A stretch of DNA of 64,000 nucleotides from Xanthomarina sp. F2636L (GTDB lineage: Bacteria; Bacteroidota; Bacteroidia; Flavobacteriales; Flavobacteriaceae): assembly GCF_026410195.1 (NCBI RefSeq), contig NZ_JAPMLM010000068.1, positions 315,001-379,000 on the forward strand, given 5' to 3'. The notes beneath the pieces are model-generated. The model was not told where the DNA came from. It ran no database searches and saw only the letters and a list, made by a program, of their open reading frames with translations. Positions within the stretch are counted from its first letter, which is position 1; each line of letters begins with the position of its first letter. The translations under genes and the position numbers were made by a program. This document shows, one piece after another, positions 3,512-45,574 of the stretch.

Positions 3512-5485
3512 TTATTCAATAATTATTTTATCTAGTGCTATTAATTGGTCAGGATTTAGTTTTGGAATGGACTTATTTATAAATAAATCGTATAAAATTT
3601 GGATGGACAAAATAGCTGTCATAGCCATATTATCTATCTCAGAAACCCCTTTATTTGATGTTATCTTAGCCTGTAAATTCTTTACATGTTCTGGGTTAAA
3701 AACACCAAATTCTTTGATGTAATCTTCTGAGAGCATGGTTTTTAAATATTCTGGCAAGTCATTAGAAACAAAAAGGCTTCGAATGGGAGCTCGATAGGCT
3801 TGCTTGGATCTGTTTAAAATTTCTTCCGGCAATCTGCCTACCATCATTTTTTTAAGAAGATATTTTTCATTTAATCCTTTAAGTTTTAAATCGGGGTGTA
3901 ATTTCATACAGAACTCAATAACTCTATGATCTAAAAAAGGATAACGTCCTTCAATGGAATTAGCCATCCCCATTCTATCGCCTTGACTAGACAACAAGTA
4001 ACCTGACATAAACAAATGAATCTCCAACCATTGTGCTTTTGTAAGATAATCGAAGTCTTTTAATCTAGATTCTAACTGATTTTCTAAATTCTCGATTGGC
4101 GAATAATCTTTAATATTTTCTTTAATGGTGTTAGAAAAATAATTCTTAATTCTGCTGGTATTATGCCATCTCAACAAATGGGAATAAATTGGAGATTGTG
4201 TTTCGTTAAGCTTATAACCAAAAAACATTTTTAGCATGTTACTGCTTGATTTGCTAATTTGTGGCAAGTATGGATACAACCTTTTTAATAATAAAGGTCT
4301 GTATTTAGAATTTGGATCTTTTGCCCAAAAGTGTTTAATTTTTGTTTCTTTAAATATATTATAACCTCCTAAAAGTTCATCTGCGCCTTCTCCAGTAATA
4401 ACCACTTTAATGTTTTGGTCTTTAACGCTTTTAGAAAGTAAACTCATAGGTGTTGGAGCAGTTCTTAAAAGTGGTGCTTCAGCAAACCAAACAACGTCTT
4501 TAAAGTGATTTGAAATGTCTTTTTCACTACAAGTAACACTAGAATGCTCTGTATTAAAATAAGAAGCAGCTATGTTTTGATAAGAAGATTCGTCGAAATC
4601 TTTTTCTGTAAAACCAATTGAAAAAGTTCTAAGTTTTTTTGGAGACACCTGTTTTATGAAAGAAGTTGTTATACTTGAATCAATCCCTCCACTTAAGTAA
4701 GCTGCTACTGGCACATCTGCTCGAAGTCGTAATTTAATAGAATCTAAAAAGATATCTTCAAAAGCTTTAGTAGCGTCTTCAAGATTTGTAAACTCGTAAT
4801 CAGCTGGTTTTACTATTGGCAATTCCCAATAAATCACACTTTTAACTTCTTCAGAATTAATAAGCATATAAGTTCCTGGAGGCACTTCAAAAACATCTTC
4901 AAAAACAGTATTTGGAGATAAAGCGGTCCAAAAGGTCACATATTCTGAAAGGGCTTTGTTAGAAAATTTTAAATTGATTTCAGGATATTCTAAAAAGGAT
5001 TTAATTTCGGAAGCAAAAAGAAAAACGTTATCATTTTGCGAATAAAATAGTGGTCTAATACCCACACGGTCTCTTGCTAAAAACAACTCTTCTTTATGTT
5101 TATCCCAAATAGCGATGGCAAATTGTCCGTTTAATTTATTGAGACATTCTGGTCCATATTCTGCATATAGATGAAGGATTACTTCAGTATCACTTTGGGT
5201 TTTAAAGCTGTATTTTTTTTGAAGCAAATCTTCCCTTAATTCGACATAATTATATATTTCCCCATTAAACACAATCCATAAAGAATCATCCTGGTTAGAA
5301 ATAGGCATAACCCCAGAACTTAGATCAATAATGCTTAACCTTACACTACCTAAGCCTACTTTATTAGAGACATAAACACCACTTTGGTCTGGACCACGAT
5401 GTTTAATTCTAGTAAGCATGTGTTGTAATGTAGAAACAGATTGTTCTTTCTTTAAGTCTCCATAAAAGCCAGCTATGCCACACAT
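3512..5485 (-). CDS. asnB: Asparagine synthase (glutamine-hydrolysing) family amidotransferase
   Basis: The 657-residue protein starts M-C-G-I-A-G, giving the N-terminal Cys2 nucleophile of class II glutaminases after Met removal. Glutamine-site motifs H-R-G-P-D (29-33) and F-N-G-E-I-Y-N (73-79) follow. The synthetase half carries the PP-loop S-G-G-I-D-S (265-270) and later G-E-G-A-D-E-L and G-R-Y-P-F-L-D-H-R motifs. It hydrolyses glutamine and uses the ammonia to amidate an adenylated carboxylate. It is longer than E. coli AsnB (about 554) and matches the long AsnB type found in polysaccharide and natural-product loci. With 12 nt to the NadE-like gene and 29 nt to the ACP gene, it is in the same transcript, so a pathway-specific substrate is likely. 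Confidence 0.85.
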   Translation of the reverse strand: MCGIAGFYGDLKKEQSVSTLQHMLTRIKHRGPDQSGVYVSNKVGLGSVRLSIIDLSSGVMPISNQDDSLWIVFNGEIYNYVELREDLLQKKYSFKTQSDTEVILHLYAEYGPECLNKLNGQFAIAIWDKHKEELFLARDRVGIRPLFYSQNDNVFLFASEIKSFLEYPEINLKFSNKALSEYVTFWTALSPNTVFEDVFEVPPGTYMLINSEEVKSVIYWELPIVKPADYEFTNLEDATKAFEDIFLDSIKLRLRADVPVAAYLSGGIDSSITTSFIKQVSPKKLRTFSIGFTEKDFDESSYQNIAASYFNTEHSSVTCSEKDISNHFKDVVWFAEAPLLRTAPTPMSLLSKSVKDQNIKVVITGEGADELLGGYNIFKETKIKHFWAKDPNSKYRPLLLKRLYPYLPQISKSSSNMLKMFFGYKLNETQSPIYSHLLRWHNTSRIKNYFSNTIKENIKDYSPIENLENQLESRLKDFDYLTKAQWLEIHLFMSGYLLSSQGDRMGMANSIEGRYPFLDHRVIEFCMKLHPDLKLKGLNEKYLLKKMMVGRLPEEILNRSKQAYRAPIRSLFVSNDLPEYLKTMLSEDYIKEFGVFNPEHVKNLQAKITSNKGVSEIDNMAMTAILSIQILYDLFINKSIPKLNPDQLIALDKIIIE

Positions 5486-13347: not shown

Positions 13348-14319
13348 ATGCTTAGAGCCTTACCATACAAAACTAAACAATTCTTATTTGTGCTTCTAAA
13401 AATAAGCTTGGTAGTTGGTGCTTTTTATTTTATTTATCATAAACTCACTACAAACAATCAATTAGATTTTGATGTATTTAGCGATTTTTTGATCGAAAAC
13501 AAAGTGTTTTCGTATAAAAACATCACTTTTCTAATCATTTTAAGCTGTTTTAATTGGTTTTTCGAAATAATAAAATGGCGTAATTTAGTCTCTATTTTTA
13601 AAAAAATCGGCTTTAAAGATGCTCTTCAACAAAGTTTAGGGTCTTTAACAGCTTCCTTATTAACTCCAAATAGAATTGGAGAGTATGGAGCAAAAGCTAT
13701 TTTTTACACCTCATCTCTTAGAAGAAAAATAGTTCTACTAAATTTTCTTGGAAACAGTATACAAATGCTGGTAACTAGTATCTTTGGATGTATTGGTTTA
13801 TACTTCTTTTTGACCAAATACCCTATAGAAATTGACTACCATAAAACAGCCCGATTTGCAGTCATTTTAATTATAATCTCAGGCATGGCATTTTTAGGAT
13901 GGAAGAAAAAGGGAGTTACTATCAAAGGGGTTTCCATTGAAAAAGTACTGCAATTTTTTAGAAATATTTCTTTTAAACATTATGTCTTGTGTTTAACTTT
14001 TTCTGTTTTAAGATATTTTATCTTTTCGTTTCAGTTTTATTTTTTACTTCAGTTATTTGGTGTAGAAGTAGCCTATAAAAATGCCATGATTGTTGTTACT
14101 ACCATGTATTTATTAGCCTCGATAATTCCTTCAATTTTTATTTTCGATGTTGTAATTAAAGGTAGTGTGGCTGTTTATTTATTTTCTTTGGTTGGCGTTA
14201 ACGAACTCACTATTTTAAGTGTTGTTACTTGTATGTGGCTACTTAATTTTGTGCTTCCAAGTATTATAGGAAGCGTATTTGTTCTAAAATTTAAATTCTC
14301 TAAAAACGTGACATCATGA
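13348..14319 (+). CDS. Lysylphosphatidylglycerol-synthase-like integral membrane protein (UPF0104)
   Basis: The 323-residue protein has about eight predicted transmembrane segments spread over its whole length. The E-I-I-K-W, S-L-T-A-S-L-L-T-P-N-R-I-G-E-Y-G signature near residues 96-113 is typical of the LPG-synthase membrane domain (flippase-like part) without the cytosolic aminoacyl-transferase domain. Such proteins often sit beside glycosyltransferases and are thought to handle lipid-linked substrates. The stop overlaps the next gene's ATG (ATGA), so it is translationally coupled to the GT2 glycosyltransferase. Confidence 0.8.
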   Translation: MLRALPYKTKQFLFVLLKISLVVGAFYFIYHKLTTNNQLDFDVFSDFLIENKVFSYKNITFLIILSCFNWFFEIIKWRNLVSIFKKIGFKDALQQSLGSLTASLLTPNRIGEYGAKAIFYTSSLRRKIVLLNFLGNSIQMLVTSIFGCIGLYFFLTKYPIEIDYHKTARFAVILIIISGMAFLGWKKKGVTIKGVSIEKVLQFFRNISFKHYVLCLTFSVLRYFIFSFQFYFLLQLFGVEVAYKNAMIVVTTMYLLASIIPSIFIFDVVIKGSVAVYLFSLVGVNELTILSVVTCMWLLNFVLPSIIGSVFVLKFKFSKNVTS

Positions 14320-33378: not shown

Positions 33379-35730
33379 TTAGGATTTATATATCCCTAAT
33401 TTTTTCATCCTATCTCTTAATGTACTAGGCTTAATCTGAAGTTGTTCAGCAGCTCCTTCCGGTCCTTCGATAACCCAATTACAAGATTTAAGAACTTTCT
33501 TTATATGAATTCGCTGTACGTCATCAAGAGATAAAACGGTTGAAGATATTAAGGACTCTGAAGAAGAGGTTTTAAAATTTGGGATAATTAGTTTTTCATT
33601 GTTTGATAAAATAACCGACCTCTCGATGAGATTTTCTAGCTCTCTAATATTACCAGGCCAAGAATAAGATTGAAGATCTCTCTTAGTTTCTTCAGATGTA
33701 TATTTAATATTTTTATTATATAGTTTGCTATACTTATCTACAAAATGCTCAATTAATATAGGAATATCTTCAACACGTTCCCTTAAAGGCGGAATAGTAA
33801 TAGGAAATACATTAATTCTAAAATAAAGATCTTCTCGAAAGTTTTTTTCCTTAACTTCTTTTTCAAGATCTCTATTTGTAGCTGTAATTATCCTTATATC
33901 TACCTTTTGGGTTTTAGTTCCTCCTACTTGTTCTATTTCAGATTCTTGAATAGCCCTTAGTAACTTTGGTTGCATTTCTATAGGCAACTCTCCTATTTCG
34001 TCTAAAAACAAGGTACCTCCATCAGCCAATTGAAACTTACCTAACTTATCAGCTGCAGCACCTGTAAAAGAGCCTTTTTTATGCCCAAACAATTCACTTT
34101 CAATTAGCTCTCTTGGAATAGCAGCGCAATTAACTTTAATTAATGGCTTATTTCTTCTGTCGCTAATATTGTGTATGGCTCTTGCCAACAATTCCTTTCC
34201 AGTTCCAGATTCTCCTAAAAGTAAAACTGTTGCATTGGTAACGGCAACACGCTCTACATCTGTAAGGACATCGCTAAATGATTTGCTGCCATAAACCATT
34301 TCTTCATAATTAAATACGAGATCTATTTCTTCACGCAAATAAATATTTTCTTGTTCGAGTTTCTTTTTAAGCTTATTCAGCTCAGAATTCAAATTTACAA
34401 GTTCTTGGTTGGTTTTTATAAGTTTTGTTTCAGCCACAATACGCTCATTACTTTCTACTGCCAAGGATATAAAATTAGAAATTGAAGAAGCAAATTCCTC
34501 CTCTTCAATTGTCCATTCTTTTGGAGGTCCCGTATGCTCAATGCAAAGCACACCATAATGCCCGCTATGTCCGGGTATTAAAACGTCTAGAGTTGAAGTA
34601 ATACCCAAAGAATTAAGGTATGTTTGTAAAAAGTTTTTGGTTCTTTTATCTTTTAAAACATTGTTTACTTTAATGGTCTTGTTTTTAAAAAGGGAATTAT
34701 AATAATCCGTATAATCATTTGCATTAAGTTCTATCCCTTCACTATGTTTACTATTACTTAAACTATATGCTTTTATGCATTTGAGATTTTTATATTTATC
34801 GTGAAATTTCCAAATACTAATTCTTTCTACTTGCATTGTTTTTGCTGCAGTTTTAGTAATTTCTTCAAAAATATAATCTAAATCATCTCCTATCAATCCA
34901 GCTAATCTTAGAATAGCATCTTTTTTTTGAACAGACTTTTTATAAATATATTTCAACTCCTTTAAATACTTTATCCTTTCTGTAATATCAGTGATAATTT
35001 CAAGTAGGAATGGTTCATCATGGATATAAACTTTTTCGTAGGTAAGAATGGCTCGCTTTTTTTCTTTGGAATTAAGCAAAAGAACTGCTTTATCTATTTG
35101 AAATGATGTTTGACTTGATGTTTTAATGTTAGTGAGAAAATCCAAATTCACTAAGCTATGAAACTTTAATTCTTTAGGGGTTCGTTCTAAAATAAGTTCT
35201 TTTTTATAACCTGTATATGTTTCCCATGATCTATTAACATCAACATACTGAAGCGTTTTAAGACTGATTAGGGATTTTGGAATTGGGCTTTTTTTAAATA
35301 GCCAATTATAACTTGAATCGTTTTCAATATAATCCTGAAAATCTAAAGTTGGTAGCTGAAGATTGAATTTACCCAAATAATAGGGTTGATTATTTATGGG
35401 GTCTTCTACATAGACTATATCGCAAGTTAGACTACGTTTATCACCATCTCGTTCACATAAACTAATTTGTCCTTCCCAATATTTCTGTTGCTTTAACTTC
35501 TGCCACCAAGCTTCATCTATGCTTTGTTTTTGTATAAATGGCTGAAGTAAGATAATGTTTTTAAATAATAAATCTTGCTCTTCGTAACCTAATAAGGAAC
35601 ATAAAGGCTCACTAATATAAGTAAACTCGCCATTCATGTTAATGAGGCACAACAACGTGTTTTTATGAAGTATTTTAGCAAATTTAACAGGATCTATACC
35701 ATTAAGAATATGTTTTAAAGAAGGATTCAT
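33379..35730 (-). CDS. PAS-GAF sigma-54-dependent transcriptional activator
   Basis: The 783-residue protein has two PAS-like segments (about 15-120 and 140-250), a GAF domain (about 280-435), a coiled coil (about 435-470), a sigma-54 AAA+ domain and a C-terminal Fis-type helix-turn-helix (about 740-780). In the AAA+ part, Walker A is G-E-S-G-T-G-K-E and Walker B L-F-L-D-E-I-G-E. The sigma-54 contact loop reads G-S-F-T-G-A, a Ser variant of GAFTGA. It would activate RpoN promoters in response to a small-molecule or redox signal. It lies between the SpoIIAA-like operon and an intergenic RNA-like element. Confidence 0.9.
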   Translation of the reverse strand: MNPSLKHILNGIDPVKFAKILHKNTLLCLINMNGEFTYISEPLCSLLGYEEQDLLFKNIILLQPFIQKQSIDEAWWQKLKQQKYWEGQISLCERDGDKRSLTCDIVYVEDPINNQPYYLGKFNLQLPTLDFQDYIENDSSYNWLFKKSPIPKSLISLKTLQYVDVNRSWETYTGYKKELILERTPKELKFHSLVNLDFLTNIKTSSQTSFQIDKAVLLLNSKEKKRAILTYEKVYIHDEPFLLEIITDITERIKYLKELKYIYKKSVQKKDAILRLAGLIGDDLDYIFEEITKTAAKTMQVERISIWKFHDKYKNLKCIKAYSLSNSKHSEGIELNANDYTDYYNSLFKNKTIKVNNVLKDKRTKNFLQTYLNSLGITSTLDVLIPGHSGHYGVLCIEHTGPPKEWTIEEEEFASSISNFISLAVESNERIVAETKLIKTNQELVNLNSELNKLKKKLEQENIYLREEIDLVFNYEEMVYGSKSFSDVLTDVERVAVTNATVLLLGESGTGKELLARAIHNISDRRNKPLIKVNCAAIPRELIESELFGHKKGSFTGAAADKLGKFQLADGGTLFLDEIGELPIEMQPKLLRAIQESEIEQVGGTKTQKVDIRIITATNRDLEKEVKEKNFREDLYFRINVFPITIPPLRERVEDIPILIEHFVDKYSKLYNKNIKYTSEETKRDLQSYSWPGNIRELENLIERSVILSNNEKLIIPNFKTSSSESLISSTVLSLDDVQRIHIKKVLKSCNWVIEGPEGAAEQLQIKPSTLRDRMKKLGIYKS

Positions 35731-35915
35731 ATTATTTGTATTTAAAGCTAGGTAGTTTGGGAGAATATTACTTATTAGAAAAATAATACCTTTAAATATA
35801 CAAAAGTTTCTATACGGTTAAAAATATAATTATATAATCTTTTGAATCCTTTTCTTGAAGTAGTGAAAAAAATTAGTCACCTAATTATAGCCCTAATTGA
35901 TGATATTTATAGTCT

Positions 35916-36048
35916 TAAAACAAAAAAGCATCCCAATTTTCTATAAAGAAAAAAGGAACCCTTATCCATTGGTTAACTACTTAACATATTAATAGACTAC
36001 TACATCTATCAAAACAACAGAATTTTGCTTTTAAATATATTCTTATTG
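35916..36048 (-). ncRNA. Candidate structured RNA, copy 1 (downstream of the S74 gene)
   Basis: This intergenic element of about 133 nt shares a 43-nt identical block (35916-35958) with copy 2 at 37761-37803, and ATTCTTATTG at the other end (36039-36048). A hairpin with arms 35989-35995 and 36006-36012 encloses the loop ACTACTACAT, identical in copy 2. Relative to copy 2, one C-G pair has become T-A, and another position pairs as G-U only on the minus strand, which suggests minus-strand transcription. A GGA/TCC mini-stem before TTTTTT could terminate it. The family is unknown to me; Flavo-1 in Rfam is one candidate. Confidence 0.55.
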
Positions 36049-36095
36049 AATTATCAGTTTTTTCAAATTCAAGATAGGAGACTTTTACAATCTAT

Positions 36096-37541
36096 TTATT
36101 GAGATTCTAATTTTGTTGATTGTTTTTTACTAAATTCCATTTGTAAAACTTTACTTTTCAGAATATTAATTTCTCTTTCTTGTCTTTCTATTTTTTCATT
36201 AAGGGCTTTAATCGCTTCAATAATTACTGGATCGTAATCTCCGTAGGCAGTTTGTAGATATCCTAAATGATCTTCTGAAACTTTCTCAGGCCAGATTTTT
36301 TGGAGATCTTGTGCAATGAAACCAATTTGTTTCCCTTCCGGTCTTTCGTAATATGTAACGTTATCATTCCATTCATATGAAACACCTTTCATTTTTATAA
36401 TCTTTTCTAACATGTCTTCTTTGTCTAATGGAACAATGTTTTTTTTCAATCTTTTGTCAGAATTTGCAATCCAAGAACCAGCTACTGGCTTTGATGCCGT
36501 ATTATATAAAACTCTAAAATCACCATAGGTATTAATAATATCCACATCATTAGAAGTGCCGTTAAACTCAATCCAAGCTCTGGAAATACCATTTATTGCA
36601 AATCCGTAAAAAGGACGCGAAGTTTCACTTCCATTTGTTTCAACAAACATTCCTCCGAAATCAGAACCCGCAACAGTACGTGAAATTCCAAATACTTCTT
36701 GGTTTGAAATTTGAGAAGTACGATTTACGAAAAGCCTGTTATTTAAAAAGTCTCCATAGACTAGAGGGGTGGTAGTTCCACTATTATCAATTAACAATTT
36801 ATTAGAATAGTTCTGCGAATTCCCTGCAGACGAGCCAATGATTACATTTCCGCTTCCACTAGTAACCAAAGCACCAGCATTCGCCCCAATGATTACATTT
36901 TCACTTGCATTAGTCAATGCAGCTCCAGAATGAGCGCCCACTGAAACATTACTCATTCCAGTACCTACATTTGAGGATGAACCACTCTCTGTTCCTATAT
37001 AGGTGTTACTGTTACCAGAGGTATTAGTTTTACCAGCATTTACACCTATAAATGTATTTTCAGTTCCTGAAGCATTTGAATTGTTAAGACCTGCATCTGT
37101 ACCTAAGGCAATGGTAGTCGTGTTAGCTTTTCCATCTTTAAGATCGTTAATTGCTACACTTTTAGAGGGTACACTCAATGCATAAGGCACGGCTTTAAAA
37201 GCTATGGTTCCCATATCTATTAAACCACCACCGGTATTTATCTTTACGTTTAAATAGTGTTCGTCAATGCCCCAATCTATTGTTGTGTAAACACCACTTA
37301 TTGGAGTGCCTTCTCCTATATTTACTATTATAAATCCATTACCATCTGTGGTAGGAGTATGGATTTCTGTATAGATGTTGGTTTGAACTGCACTTTGTAA
37401 AATACTAAATTGTACTACTACAAGAGTGTTGGTTACTACATTACCACTTCCGTCTTTAATAATTGCTTTGTAGTTGATGCCTTGTTGGGCATTACTTATC
37501 AATGTCATGCAAAATGTTAATAAGAATAATAGTTTTTTCAT
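36096..37541 (-). CDS. Secreted fibre-like protein with C-terminal peptidase-S74 chaperone domain
   Basis: The 481-residue protein has a signal peptide (about 1-18, ending S-N-A-Q). It has an N-terminal I-N-Y-K-A-I-I-K-D-G-S-G segment common in Bacteroidota surface proteins, then Gly/Asn/Thr-rich turns repeating N-T-F-I-G, N-T-Y-I-G and N-V-I-I-G (about 160-240). The end is a tail-spike chaperone domain with S-D-K-R-L-K-K-N-I (about 363-371) and Q-I-G-F-I-A-Q-D, followed by a coiled coil. S74 domains trimerise and autocleave after a Ser. There is no phage context. Copies of a putative RNA element flank the gene on both sides. Confidence 0.8.
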   Translation of the reverse strand: MKKLLFLLTFCMTLISNAQQGINYKAIIKDGSGNVVTNTLVVVQFSILQSAVQTNIYTEIHTPTTDGNGFIIVNIGEGTPISGVYTTIDWGIDEHYLNVKINTGGGLIDMGTIAFKAVPYALSVPSKSVAINDLKDGKANTTTIALGTDAGLNNSNASGTENTFIGVNAGKTNTSGNSNTYIGTESGSSSNVGTGMSNVSVGAHSGAALTNASENVIIGANAGALVTSGSGNVIIGSSAGNSQNYSNKLLIDNSGTTTPLVYGDFLNNRLFVNRTSQISNQEVFGISRTVAGSDFGGMFVETNGSETSRPFYGFAINGISRAWIEFNGTSNDVDIINTYGDFRVLYNTASKPVAGSWIANSDKRLKKNIVPLDKEDMLEKIIKMKGVSYEWNDNVTYYERPEGKQIGFIAQDLQKIWPEKVSEDHLGYLQTAYGDYDPVIIEAIKALNEKIERQEREINILKSKVLQMEFSKKQSTKLESQ

Positions 37542-37760
37542 GAGTATATTTTTATTAGTTAAAGCCTATTAGTCAACAAGATACATAAAAAACAAATAAA
37601 TAGTTATACACAATGTATGGTTGGAGCAAAATAGTACATAGATGGTTATAAATTATTAGAAATTAGGTATGAGGGTACATCTTTGAAAAGGTAAAAGCAC
37701 ACCTTATAGCCCCCCTTTTCATGTGCAAAAACTTAACAAGTTGACAGAACAGAACTTACC

Positions 37761-37892
37761 TAAAACAAAAAAGCATCCCAATTTTCTATAAAGAAAAAAG
37801 GAAAGCTTTCCATTGGATAAAGTTGAAAGATTCAACTCTACTACCATTGACAGACTACTACATCTGTCAAACAACACAACTAATTCTTATTG
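37761..37892 (-). ncRNA. Candidate structured RNA, copy 2 (upstream of the S74 gene)
   Basis: This copy spans about 132 nt between the tRNA-Asp terminator and the S74 gene. The main hairpin, written on plus, is TTGACAG (37847-37853), loop ACTACTACAT, CTGTCAA (37864-37870), with seven perfect pairs. A second hairpin AGTTGAA / TTCAACT lies at 37821-37837. CCAAT (37778-37782) and ATTGG (37812-37816) can close an outer stem. On the minus strand GGAAAGCTTTCC followed by TTTTTT (37795-37811) looks like an intrinsic terminator. The S74 start lies 220 nt further on, so the element may be an sRNA or an attenuating leader. Confidence 0.55.
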
Positions 37893-37894
37893 CT

Positions 37895-37923
37895 AAAAAA
37901 AGCTTCAATTTCTTGAAGCTTTT
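37895..37923 (-). terminator. Terminator of tRNA-Asp
   Basis: GCTTCAA / TTGAAGC with flanking A/T pairs and a short loop lies 11 nt after the tRNA 3' end. On the minus strand the stem is followed by TTTTTTTAG. It separates the tRNA transcript from the RNA-like element. Confidence 0.8.
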
Positions 37924-37933
37924 GCAATATTTG

Positions 37934-38007
37934 CGGTCTGGACGGGACTCGAACCCGCGACCTTCGCCGTGACAGGGCGACATTCTAACCAACTGAACTA
38001 CCAGACC
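37934..38007 (-). tRNA. tRNA-Asp (anticodon GTC)
   Basis: Read on the minus strand, the 74 nt fold as a complete cloverleaf. The acceptor stem is GGTCTGG / CCAGACC with discriminator G, the D-loop contains AGTTGGTTAGAAT, the anticodon stem is TCGCC / GGCGA with loop CTGTCAC (anticodon GTC), and the T-arm is GCGGG-TTCGAGT-CCCGT. CCA is not encoded. It is preceded by a consensus promoter and followed by a terminator, so it is a single-gene transcript. Confidence 0.97.
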
Positions 38008-38065
38008 GTTGCATTATTGCTACTTTTCAAACTAATAACTTTCGTTATAGCCCTTCAAGCGGGTG

Positions 38066-38095
38066 CAAATATAAGCGCCTTTTTTCATTTGTCAA
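38066..38095 (-). promoter_or_regulatory. Promoter of tRNA-Asp
   Basis: On the minus strand TTG (38095-38093), 19 nt, then TATATTTG (38073-38066) matches the Bacteroidota promoter TTG-N17-23-TAnnTTTG. It lies about 60 bp upstream of the tRNA 5' end. Confidence 0.75.
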
Positions 38096-38127
38096 ACATT
38101 TTTTCAAAAATTTTTATTTTTTTTATT

Positions 38128-39057
38128 CTAAATAAATTTTTGTCTCTCTATCATATAGGTTGTCAGGATATTATTGAATTTTTTATTAATGTCTGCTTCT
38201 ACATATTTTATGCGGTATTGGCCACATTTTAGTTTTATGTTTTCAAAATAATCCCCTACAGCTTTTTTATAGCTATCCTTTATATTTTCAGCATATAAAT
38301 TTATGTGCTCACCTGTTTCAACATCAATATATTGTTTTGGTGCATTATCAAAATCAAATAACATTTCTTTTTCTTTATCGAACACATGAAATAAAACCAC
38401 CTCATGTTTATTGTATTTTAAATGACGAAGCGCTTCAAACAATTTATCTTCTTCGACTTTTGTTTGCAACATATCTGTAAAAAAGAAAATCAAAGAACGC
38501 CTTTTAATGTTTTCAGCTATTTGATGTAGATAAGTAAAGGTATCCGTTTGTCTATGCTTTGGTTTAGAAATTACTAGTTCGCTTAATTGATTCAACAACA
38601 TGTGGTGGTGTCTTTCGCTCCCTTTCTCAGGTGTATAAAAATCGTAGGAATCACTATAAACACTTAATCCAACAGCATCTCTCTGCTTTTTTAAAATATG
38701 CATTAAAGAAGCTGATGCCAGAGCGGTAAAAGCAATCTTATTTAAGCTATCAACGGAAAACGATTTCAGTTCTGGATAATGCATGGAACTACTATTGTCA
38801 ATAATTAAATGACAACGTAAATTAGTTTCTTCGTCGTATCGTTTTGTATAAAGCTTATCCGTTTTTGCATACAGTTTCCAATCTATATGCTTGGTACTTT
38901 CTCCTTGATTGTAAATTTTATGTTCGGCAAATTCTGCCGAAAATCCATGAAATGGACTTTTATGCATTCCTGCTATAAACCCTTCTACCACTTGTTTGGC
39001 AAGTAAATCTAGGTTTTTAAAACCACTTGTTTTATTGAGTTCTTGTTGTAAATCCAT
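38128..39057 (-). CDS. DUF58 domain protein
   Basis: The 309-residue cytoplasmic protein has the DUF58 signature G-E-S-T-K-H-I-D-W-K-L-Y-A-K-T-D (about 52-67). A von Willebrand-like metal-site region I-D-N-S-S-S-M-H-Y (D-x-S-x-S) and I-F-F-F-T-D-M also appear. DUF58 proteins are usually encoded beside MoxR AAA+ ATPases and vWA membrane proteins (Bat operon). Those partners are not adjacent here, so they would be encoded elsewhere. A terminator separates it from trxA upstream. Confidence 0.85.
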   Translation of the reverse strand: MDLQQELNKTSGFKNLDLLAKQVVEGFIAGMHKSPFHGFSAEFAEHKIYNQGESTKHIDWKLYAKTDKLYTKRYDEETNLRCHLIIDNSSSMHYPELKSFSVDSLNKIAFTALASASLMHILKKQRDAVGLSVYSDSYDFYTPEKGSERHHHMLLNQLSELVISKPKHRQTDTFTYLHQIAENIKRRSLIFFFTDMLQTKVEEDKLFEALRHLKYNKHEVVLFHVFDKEKEMLFDFDNAPKQYIDVETGEHINLYAENIKDSYKKAVGDYFENIKLKCGQYRIKYVEADINKKFNNILTTYMIERQKFI

Positions 39058-45528: not shown

Positions 45529-45574
45529 CACCCTTATTAATAATCGAGGTCGCGAACCTCACTAATTAATTTAT

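Follow-up and report, generated by a model that had tools for sequence, protein, structure and literature searches.

A candidate small RNA gene behind tRNA-Asp in Flavobacteriaceae with complementarity to the pnp leader

What are two closely similar intergenic repeats doing on either side of a gene for a secreted protein in the flavobacterium Xanthomarina sp. F2636L? They lie in a 64,000-nucleotide (nt) stretch of contig NZ_JAPMLM010000068.1 (assembly GCF_026410195.1, positions 315,001 to 379,000 of the forward strand), hereafter the window, with copy 1 at 35916-36048 and copy 2 at 37761-37892 counted from its first letter. Our analysis suggests, with a probability of roughly 0.8, that copy 2 is the gene of a trans-acting small RNA of Flavobacteriaceae that pairs with the leader of pnp, the gene for polyribonucleotide nucleotidyltransferase (PNPase), and may lower PNPase synthesis, and that copy 1 is a diverged extra. 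New here is that three conserved segments of the predicted RNA are complementary, in order, to a conserved stem-loop of the pnp 5' leader.

Two repeats and a conserved RNA structure

The two repeats share a 43-nt block with 100% identity (35916-35958 and 37761-37803), match exactly at the far end (ATTCTTATTG) and in a loop (ACTACTACAT), and differ in a stem that reads TTAATAG/CTATCAA in copy 1 and TTGACAG/CTGTCAA in copy 2, while a second hairpin pairs in either repeat (GTTGAA/TTCAAC and GTTAA/TTAAC). These identities and differences had been described in an original prediction made from the sequence alone and were all reproduced as stated, as was a distance of 190-220 nt to the next minus-strand starts, which measures ~219 nt for an S74 protein and ~185 nt for a sigma-54 activator. 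A blast search of the own genome with copy 2 returned copy 1 at E = 4.7e-19 and its next best match at E = 0.0026. Compared with 200 shuffles each, minus-strand folds gave z = -5.7 for copy 2 (none as good) and z = -3.3 for copy 1 (two as good), and plus-strand folds gave z = -5.1 (none as good) and z = -1.5 (15 as good), respectively. Folding alone thus prefers the minus strand for copy 1 only, since copy 2 folds well both ways; the minus strand is settled by the U tract, the same-strand tRNA gene upstream and the homologues.

On that strand, the predicted RNA of ~100-115 nt runs from a bare 5' tail (GUUGUGUUGU) through two hairpins and CCAAUGG to a terminator-like hairpin. For copy 2 (37766-37880), the standard tRNA-proximal gene, the fold holds three hairpins, the last one terminator-like with a U tract: the tail (site A) occupies 37871-37880, hairpin 1 lies at 37847-37870 and carries GUAGUAG in its loop (site B, 37855-37861), hairpin 2 lies at 37820-37840, site C (CCAAUGGAAAGCU, 37804-37816) partly overlaps the 5' arm of the last hairpin, and the 43-nt block (37761-37803) supplies most of that hairpin together with the U tract. 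Copy 1 (35921-36023, minus strand), a distal paralogue that the covariance models also recognise, has an altered terminator arm (AAGGGUUCC) and a changed 5' tail. A transcript, if made, would end near 37766 in copy 2 and near 35921 in copy 1. Protein coding was considered and rejected: one frame of copy 2 is open through the terminator arm, but a single extra base in copy 1 breaks it, and loop lengths vary.

Copy 2 lies 52 nt behind a tRNA-Asp(GTC) gene (37934-38007, minus strand), which was found in an Rfam scan of the window and is absent from the original prediction; between the two, a terminator-like hairpin can be read from the sequence at 37894-37923 (minus strand).

We evaluated the structure in 88 copies (85 distinct) fitted to R1, a covariance model built from nine sequences. 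Such fitting leans the alignment toward the structure; paired cells reached 95.4%, compared with 80.4% after shuffling and at most 63.8% when slid by one column, and the excess pairing is thus far above the slid controls. Changes on both sides were found in 25 of 39 pairs (shuffled mean 21.3, reached by 3 of 500 shuffles), and double-change cells numbered 380, as against 96 in shuffles. Helix 1 is clearest, with 99.1% of cells paired and changes on both sides in all nine pairs of hairpin 1, and in hairpin 2 all ten pairs of helices 3 and 4 show double changes (paired cells, 83.8% and 96.6%), while closing helix 2 is weak (75.3%) and 6 of 17 terminator pairs are invariant. The bare tail is itself conserved: GTTGTGTTG is present in 70/70 tRNA-proximal copies, and the first nine letters of the tail are identical in 70/70 proximal copies, 16/35 distal ones and 12/17 copies with no tRNA in the stretch. 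Upstream of GTTGTG in the 70 proximal copies, a promoter search showed the tRNA terminator and an A-rich spacer, and no clear TAnnTTTG box, a known promoter motif. The predicted paralogous, structured minus-strand RNA with a terminator-like end is borne out by the covariation in these aligned copies, and the covariance-model search of flavobacterial genomes that had been proposed with it indeed found homologues.

How far does this RNA extend? By blast, matches occurred in 21 of 60 relatives and 14 of 49 genera, including 8/8 genomes of the own genus (own genome counted). Under strict filters, R1 matched 155 of 299 genomes of the family, from 128 of 236 genera. A second model, R2, built from 88 copies, matched 29 of 196 genomes in a sample of the order and 18 of 198 in a sample of the phylum, every one in Flavobacteriaceae; with the order sample split by a row list of the same size and handles, 29 of 30 family members and none of 166 others had an R2 match. 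At E <= 0.1, R2 gave a match in 22 of 33 family genomes that had been picked by hand and had none with R1. Most of these 23 R2 matches, judged by eye, hold GTTGTG...CAATGA or CGATGA and have a terminator of reduced length; the match in genome G023 and the second one in G011 look false, and that in G119 lacks the tail. Only 11 of the 23 adjoin tRNA-Asp, so the RNA is not invariably found behind that gene. Scanning named genomes for the pattern yielded 50 stretches, from Tamlana, Algibacter, Kordia, Xanthomarina and others, which we take to be Flavobacteriaceae, and from two metagenome-assembled genomes named only Bacteroidia. As far as searched, the RNA is confined to Flavobacteriaceae, and its structure and family-wide conservation are both supported by sequence comparison.

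The RNA and the pnp-leader hairpin described below lie outside all Rfam families in the stretches tested: with Rfam 15 at gathering score, the window and 14 loci (11 around the RNA, 3 around pnp leaders) matched only known RNAs, none of them this one, and the matches in the 14 loci were tRNA and the S15-Flavobacteria leader of rpsO only. The proposal that the repeats might be Flavo-1 (RF01705), likewise a structured RNA of Flavobacteriaceae, had to be abandoned, as that model has no window match at gathering score, including at either copy, and none in 35700-38200 at E <= 5, and the own genome's single Flavo-1 match (G000:C70:195421-195547) is on a different contig. As a separate observation, the window holds an S16-Flavobacteria ribosomal protein leader (RF03138) at 45536-45570 on the plus strand. 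A phage or plasmid origin found no support, with no match in phages or plasmids and none by pattern in viral contigs. We recognised no report of a pnp-directed small RNA in Bacteroidota or of an RNA that follows tRNA-Asp in the literature searched, outside which most subscription papers and all supplements fell.

Complementarity to the pnp leader

The complement of the tail, ACAACACAAC, occurs at 21 places in the own genome (10 for a reversed control), one of them the RNA gene itself and one at pnp, where it begins 39 nt before the pnp start in the rpsO-pnp interval. Matches to the other two conserved RNA segments adjoin it there in the right order; site C, for instance, can form 13 contiguous pairs, G-U included, with AGUUUUUCAUUGG. 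The gene concerned encodes PNPase (NCBIfam polyribonucleotide nucleotidyltransferase, 909 bits) and lies about 160 kb from the RNA gene (G000:C65:190680 versus 352766-352880). The complementarity to an mRNA encoded elsewhere is conserved, as is typical of trans-acting small RNAs, and the part of the leader that the predicted pairing would cover is C/A-rich and lies ahead of the start codon, as in GcvB.

Across the family, the two outer sites accompany pnp. Among 50 pnp leaders fetched by protein homology, AACACAAC was present in 42, TTTTCATTGG in 44 and both in 40; several of the ten others hold near variants (loci L254, L267, L273, L278), and the leader in L270 was not reached by the script. 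The window, read on both strands, holds two instances of AACACAAC, one of them in the RNA gene, and a single TTTTCATTGG. The two sites at their proper spacing were found in 203 of 299 family genomes, while reversing the pattern left 3 rows (counts by eye). They lie just upstream of pnp in 27 of 27 genomes comparable by eye, and occur once in the own genome, at pnp. A looser pattern, again counted by eye in the order sample, occurred in 27 of 30 family members and 22 of 166 others, with 9 of 30 and 12 of 166 for the reversed control; for G008, among the 27, the hit is the RNA gene read on the other strand, and its pnp leader (L253) has the sites with a shorter gap. The pnp leaders of G003, G020, G033 and G255 (L258, L255, L246, L351) share a similar insert starting CCTGTCCG between site A and the closing GACC.

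We then considered the pairing itself in 47 genomes with both partners, the leaders having been picked by their flanking motifs. With G-U pairs counted, 46 of 47 genomes reached an uninterrupted run of 10 or more pairs at site A, and 46 of 47 a run of 13 or more at site C. Mean duplex energy was -33.9, as against -19.9 for shuffled leaders, and in 44 of 47 genomes at most 1 of 100 shuffles was as strong. Three tests are independent of the leader choice, namely the protein-anchored leaders, the spaced pattern with its reversed control, and site B. At site B, GUAGUAG in the RNA goes with CUACUAC at pnp: seven of the 47 genomes have both, 39 neither and one the RNA form only (Fisher 1.3e-7), and G071 is a further concordant case. 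Over 60 genomes, GUAGU/ACUAC was found in 40, GUGGU/ACCAC in 6, GUGGU/ACUAC in 2 (one of which, G102, also holds ACCAC) and GUAGU/ACCAC in none (Fisher on the four cells, 2.3e-6), and the middle region paired better with the leader of its own genome than with permuted partners (0 of 20,000 permutations). Taken together, comparison of the two partners supports both the complementarity and the covariation at site B, so that trans pairing with pnp mRNA is well supported, and the RNA probably controls PNPase.

The tRNA-Asp locus and the origin of copy 1

Placement was evaluated for 122 model matches in 81 sources, comprising the window and loci chosen around better-scoring matches. Seventy of the copies lie 9-98 nt behind a same-strand tRNA-Asp(GTC), 56 of them at 50-57 nt; 35 are further from an upstream tRNA (distal), and 17 have no such tRNA in the fetched stretch. 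The upstream tRNA-Asp is the usual constant neighbour, and the gene after the RNA varies widely and is often on the opposite strand, although a protein of ~672 amino acids recurs there in about eight loci. In five loci of genus g146 (L163, L164, L165, L167, L168) the RNA has a tRNA-Asp gene on either side and a much reduced terminator, and in L066 (G021) each of two tRNA-Asp genes is followed by an RNA copy.

In the window, an S74-domain secreted protein (36096-37541, minus strand; Pfam Peptidase_S74) is encoded between the two copies, and the sigma-54 activator (33379-35730, minus strand; assigned by Pfam) is the downstream neighbour. The order dnaE-trxA-DUF58-tRNA-Asp-RNA-sigma-54 gene is kept in G003 (L068) and G136 (L102), whose sigma-54 proteins are 64% and 63% identical to that of the window; neither has an S74 gene or a second RNA at the locus, the search for S74 having been confined to it. 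By comparison with these two syntenic relatives, copy 1 together with the S74 gene would most simply have come by insertion at a tRNA-Asp/RNA hotspot.

In G007 and G024, islands of ~22 and ~4 kb start directly behind the proximal RNA with a tyrosine integrase (Pfam domains Arm-DNA-bind_5, Phage_int_SAM_5 and Phage_integrase), and a displaced 3' piece of tRNA-Asp stands before the distal RNA, so that both features of a tDNA island, an integrase and a displaced tRNA fragment, are present. The window has neither a relative of these two integrases among its open reading frames nor a tRNA piece before copy 1, and the mechanism of insertion there can thus only be inferred. Overall, a script pattern found a tRNA-Asp 3' piece within 120 nt of 4 of 35 distal copies. 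The idea that an integrase is generally involved was rejected: relatives of the two seed integrases among the open reading frames of the 81 sources were only the seeds themselves, other recombinase families not having been looked for.

Arrays of the RNA occur as well, with six copies in L146 (G188, ~16 kb), four in L115 (G111, ~7 kb) and eight in L059/L060 (G012, ~30 kb), and with differing genes in the intervals; the eight of G012 are increasingly decayed. Between RNA copies at 13840-13941 and 4144-4244 at the tRNA-Asp hotspot of L118 (G139) lies an open reading frame of 1438 amino acids, the start of which may resemble Cas9.

Distal copies differ from proximal ones. The altered terminator arm of copy 1 (type II) was found in 8 of 35 distal copies, none of 70 proximal and none of 17 other copies. 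Pairing with the own pnp leader is predicted at -24.0 kcal/mol for copy 1 and -35.4 kcal/mol for copy 2, and over 13 genomes 14 proximal copies averaged -33.2 and 17 distal copies -25.3 (Mann-Whitney 0.002). Copy 1 may be decaying or retargeted.

Mode of action and competing explanations

How might such an RNA act? Folded alone, the RNA tail and leader site A are largely unpaired (means of 0.89 and 0.97), and site C is half paired in each partner (0.46 in the RNA and 0.46 in the leader). The leader usually folds into a hairpin whose loop is C/A-rich, and in 68 of 84 leaders its site C is paired to the segment that precedes the start region. In the mechanism that we propose, the tail (GUUGUGUUGU) would meet the C/A-rich loop first, site B, a GUAGU-type motif, would then meet the same loop, and site C (CCAAUGGAAAGCU) would invade the 5' arm of the leader hairpin. 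We infer that the RNA is made and that this duplex forms in cells in the order given; the duplex would reduce the synthesis of PNPase by hiding the C/A-rich region, by presenting a substrate to RNase III, or by both.

Several points weigh against this reading. Sites A and C are not independent tests in the 47 genomes, because their leaders were chosen by flanking motifs. The seven GUAGUAG genomes represent four genera, the GUGGU cases may be one lineage, and the statistics ignore kinship; five of the seven CUACUAC leaders had been fetched for that form of pnp, the RNA side being then not yet looked at. The 13 divergent genomes that raise the set to 60 were picked after both listings had been read; G011 was not included, and the script discarded G081. 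Of the 60, 12 show an "other" motif in one partner or in both (5 RNA-other/ACUAC, 4 other/other, 2 GUGGU/other, 1 GUAGU/other), and on the 47 genomes alone the permutation test is weaker (55 of 10,000). G160 and G372 are family genomes with an RNA match and without the looser pnp pattern, and G017 (L286) has neither the pnp motif nor an RNA match. Not all distal copies are decayed, since those of G069, G198 and G016, and two of the three in G064, roughly equal or exceed the proximal ones in predicted pairing. Finally, with sites A to C occupied, predicted access to the start codon rises in 17 of 84 leaders and falls in 9, with no consistent sign.

The last point bears on the direction of control. 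The same pairing could have the opposite outcome, with the RNA opening the leader hairpin and activating pnp in the manner of anti-antisense activators, which would agree with the stem formed by leader site C in those 68 leaders, with lowest-energy folds that pair site C with the start region itself in 14 of 84, and with one stretch of the own leader that folds with the AUG in a stem, although the stretch of that leader used among the 84 does not. Against this, the start region opens in only 17 leaders and closes in 9, and masking C/A-rich leader segments, which are often translation enhancers, would repress; we regard activation as possible though clearly less probable, and favouring repression over it is our guess. 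A more doubtful reading makes the pnp leader a sponge for the RNA or a trigger of its decay, the real targets being other mRNAs. Widely conserved small RNAs often have multiple targets, which counts for this reading, and 19 of the ACAACACAAC sites in the own genome lie outside both the RNA gene and pnp (judged by position only), including a possible second target where the sequence stands ten nt before the start of a 132-amino-acid open reading frame (L241:1501-1510; G000:C70:151098-151107); against it, the spaced two-site pattern is found in that genome at pnp and nowhere else.

Two further explanations dispense with an RNA acting on pnp. The repeats could be debris of attachment sites or mobile elements with no RNA function, in line with copies that multiply downstream of tRNA-Asp (nine blast matches in 30 kb of G012) and with the G007 and G024 islands, which have an integrase behind the proximal copy and a displaced tRNA-Asp 3' piece at the end. 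Yet the proximal copy is kept whatever gene follows, its helices show compensatory changes and its pairing with pnp intermolecular covariation, and the search for relatives of the two integrases recovered nothing beyond its seeds, so that this explanation, already disfavoured for copy 2, appears very improbable. Mobile-element remnants had been named in the original prediction as the outcome that would undo it, and they enter the picture in part: the extra copies mark an insertion hotspot, while the tRNA-proximal copy is a conserved RNA gene. Still less probable are leader attenuators of the S74 and sigma-54 genes, suggested by the position of the elements 185-219 nt upstream of both starts, since a terminator-like hairpin ends the element and the gene that comes next differs greatly between genomes and in many cases has the opposite orientation. 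Of the two roles originally offered, that of a small RNA gains from the pnp-leader match in trans, and that of an attenuator falls with the changing neighbours. Going further, one could picture a closed loop in which the RNA controls pnp through the three-site duplex, PNPase removes the RNA, and island copies with the altered site C of the type II arm serve as mobile regulators or decoys that retune the loop, an idea that we consider speculative and rather unlikely.

Known systems offer partial parallels. GcvB has a G/U-rich seed, and SraG is encoded beside pnp and is reportedly tied to PNPase homeostasis. In enterobacteria, GcvB is described as repressing gltI and dppA by masking C/A-rich translation enhancers (PMC9988348); the outline of action is alike, phylum and target differ, and the RNA described here matches no Rfam family. 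The E. coli pnp 5' leader is reported as a control point where RNase III cleavage starts the decay of pnp mRNA (PMC9032294), and SraG appeared to raise PNPase in Yersinia (PMC3832800). The pnp leader as a control point is thus common to those systems and the present one, whereas the RNA described here is encoded at tRNA-Asp, ~160 kb away, and would act in trans. Within the phylum, FopS/GibS of Bacteroides are reported as multi-copy paralogous small RNAs with a conserved 5' seed, FopS having 14 loci in Bacteroidaceae, a length of about 65-70 nt and susC-like mRNA targets (PMC11697453); the RNA described here is longer, is tied to tRNA-Asp and matches pnp. Rfp18 of Flavobacterium psychrophilum, a structured small RNA with at least three stem-loops that is conserved widely across the genus, could be the same RNA as judged by description only, although its reported targets, metalloproteases and an adhesin (PMC9723704), differ from pnp. 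For tDNA islands of the Islander type, a regenerated tRNA gene and a displaced fragment are described as marking the ends, and tandem arrays occur (PMC4383910); integrative and conjugative elements in tRNA-Asp-GTC are mentioned for Elizabethkingia (PMC8694125). Unlike the Islander type, the window lacks both the tRNA-Asp 3' piece and such an integrase, and such a piece is kept by few distal copies.

Base-pairing small RNAs are poorly known in Bacteroidota. The present analysis offers a candidate pair for the Flavobacteriaceae, consisting of a widely conserved RNA and a widely conserved site in a central RNA-decay gene, joined by bases that appear to co-evolve. This suggests that the control of PNPase through the pnp leader, as seen in enterobacteria, may have a counterpart that works through an RNA in trans, and the same RNA provides a marker for an insertion hotspot at tRNA-Asp.

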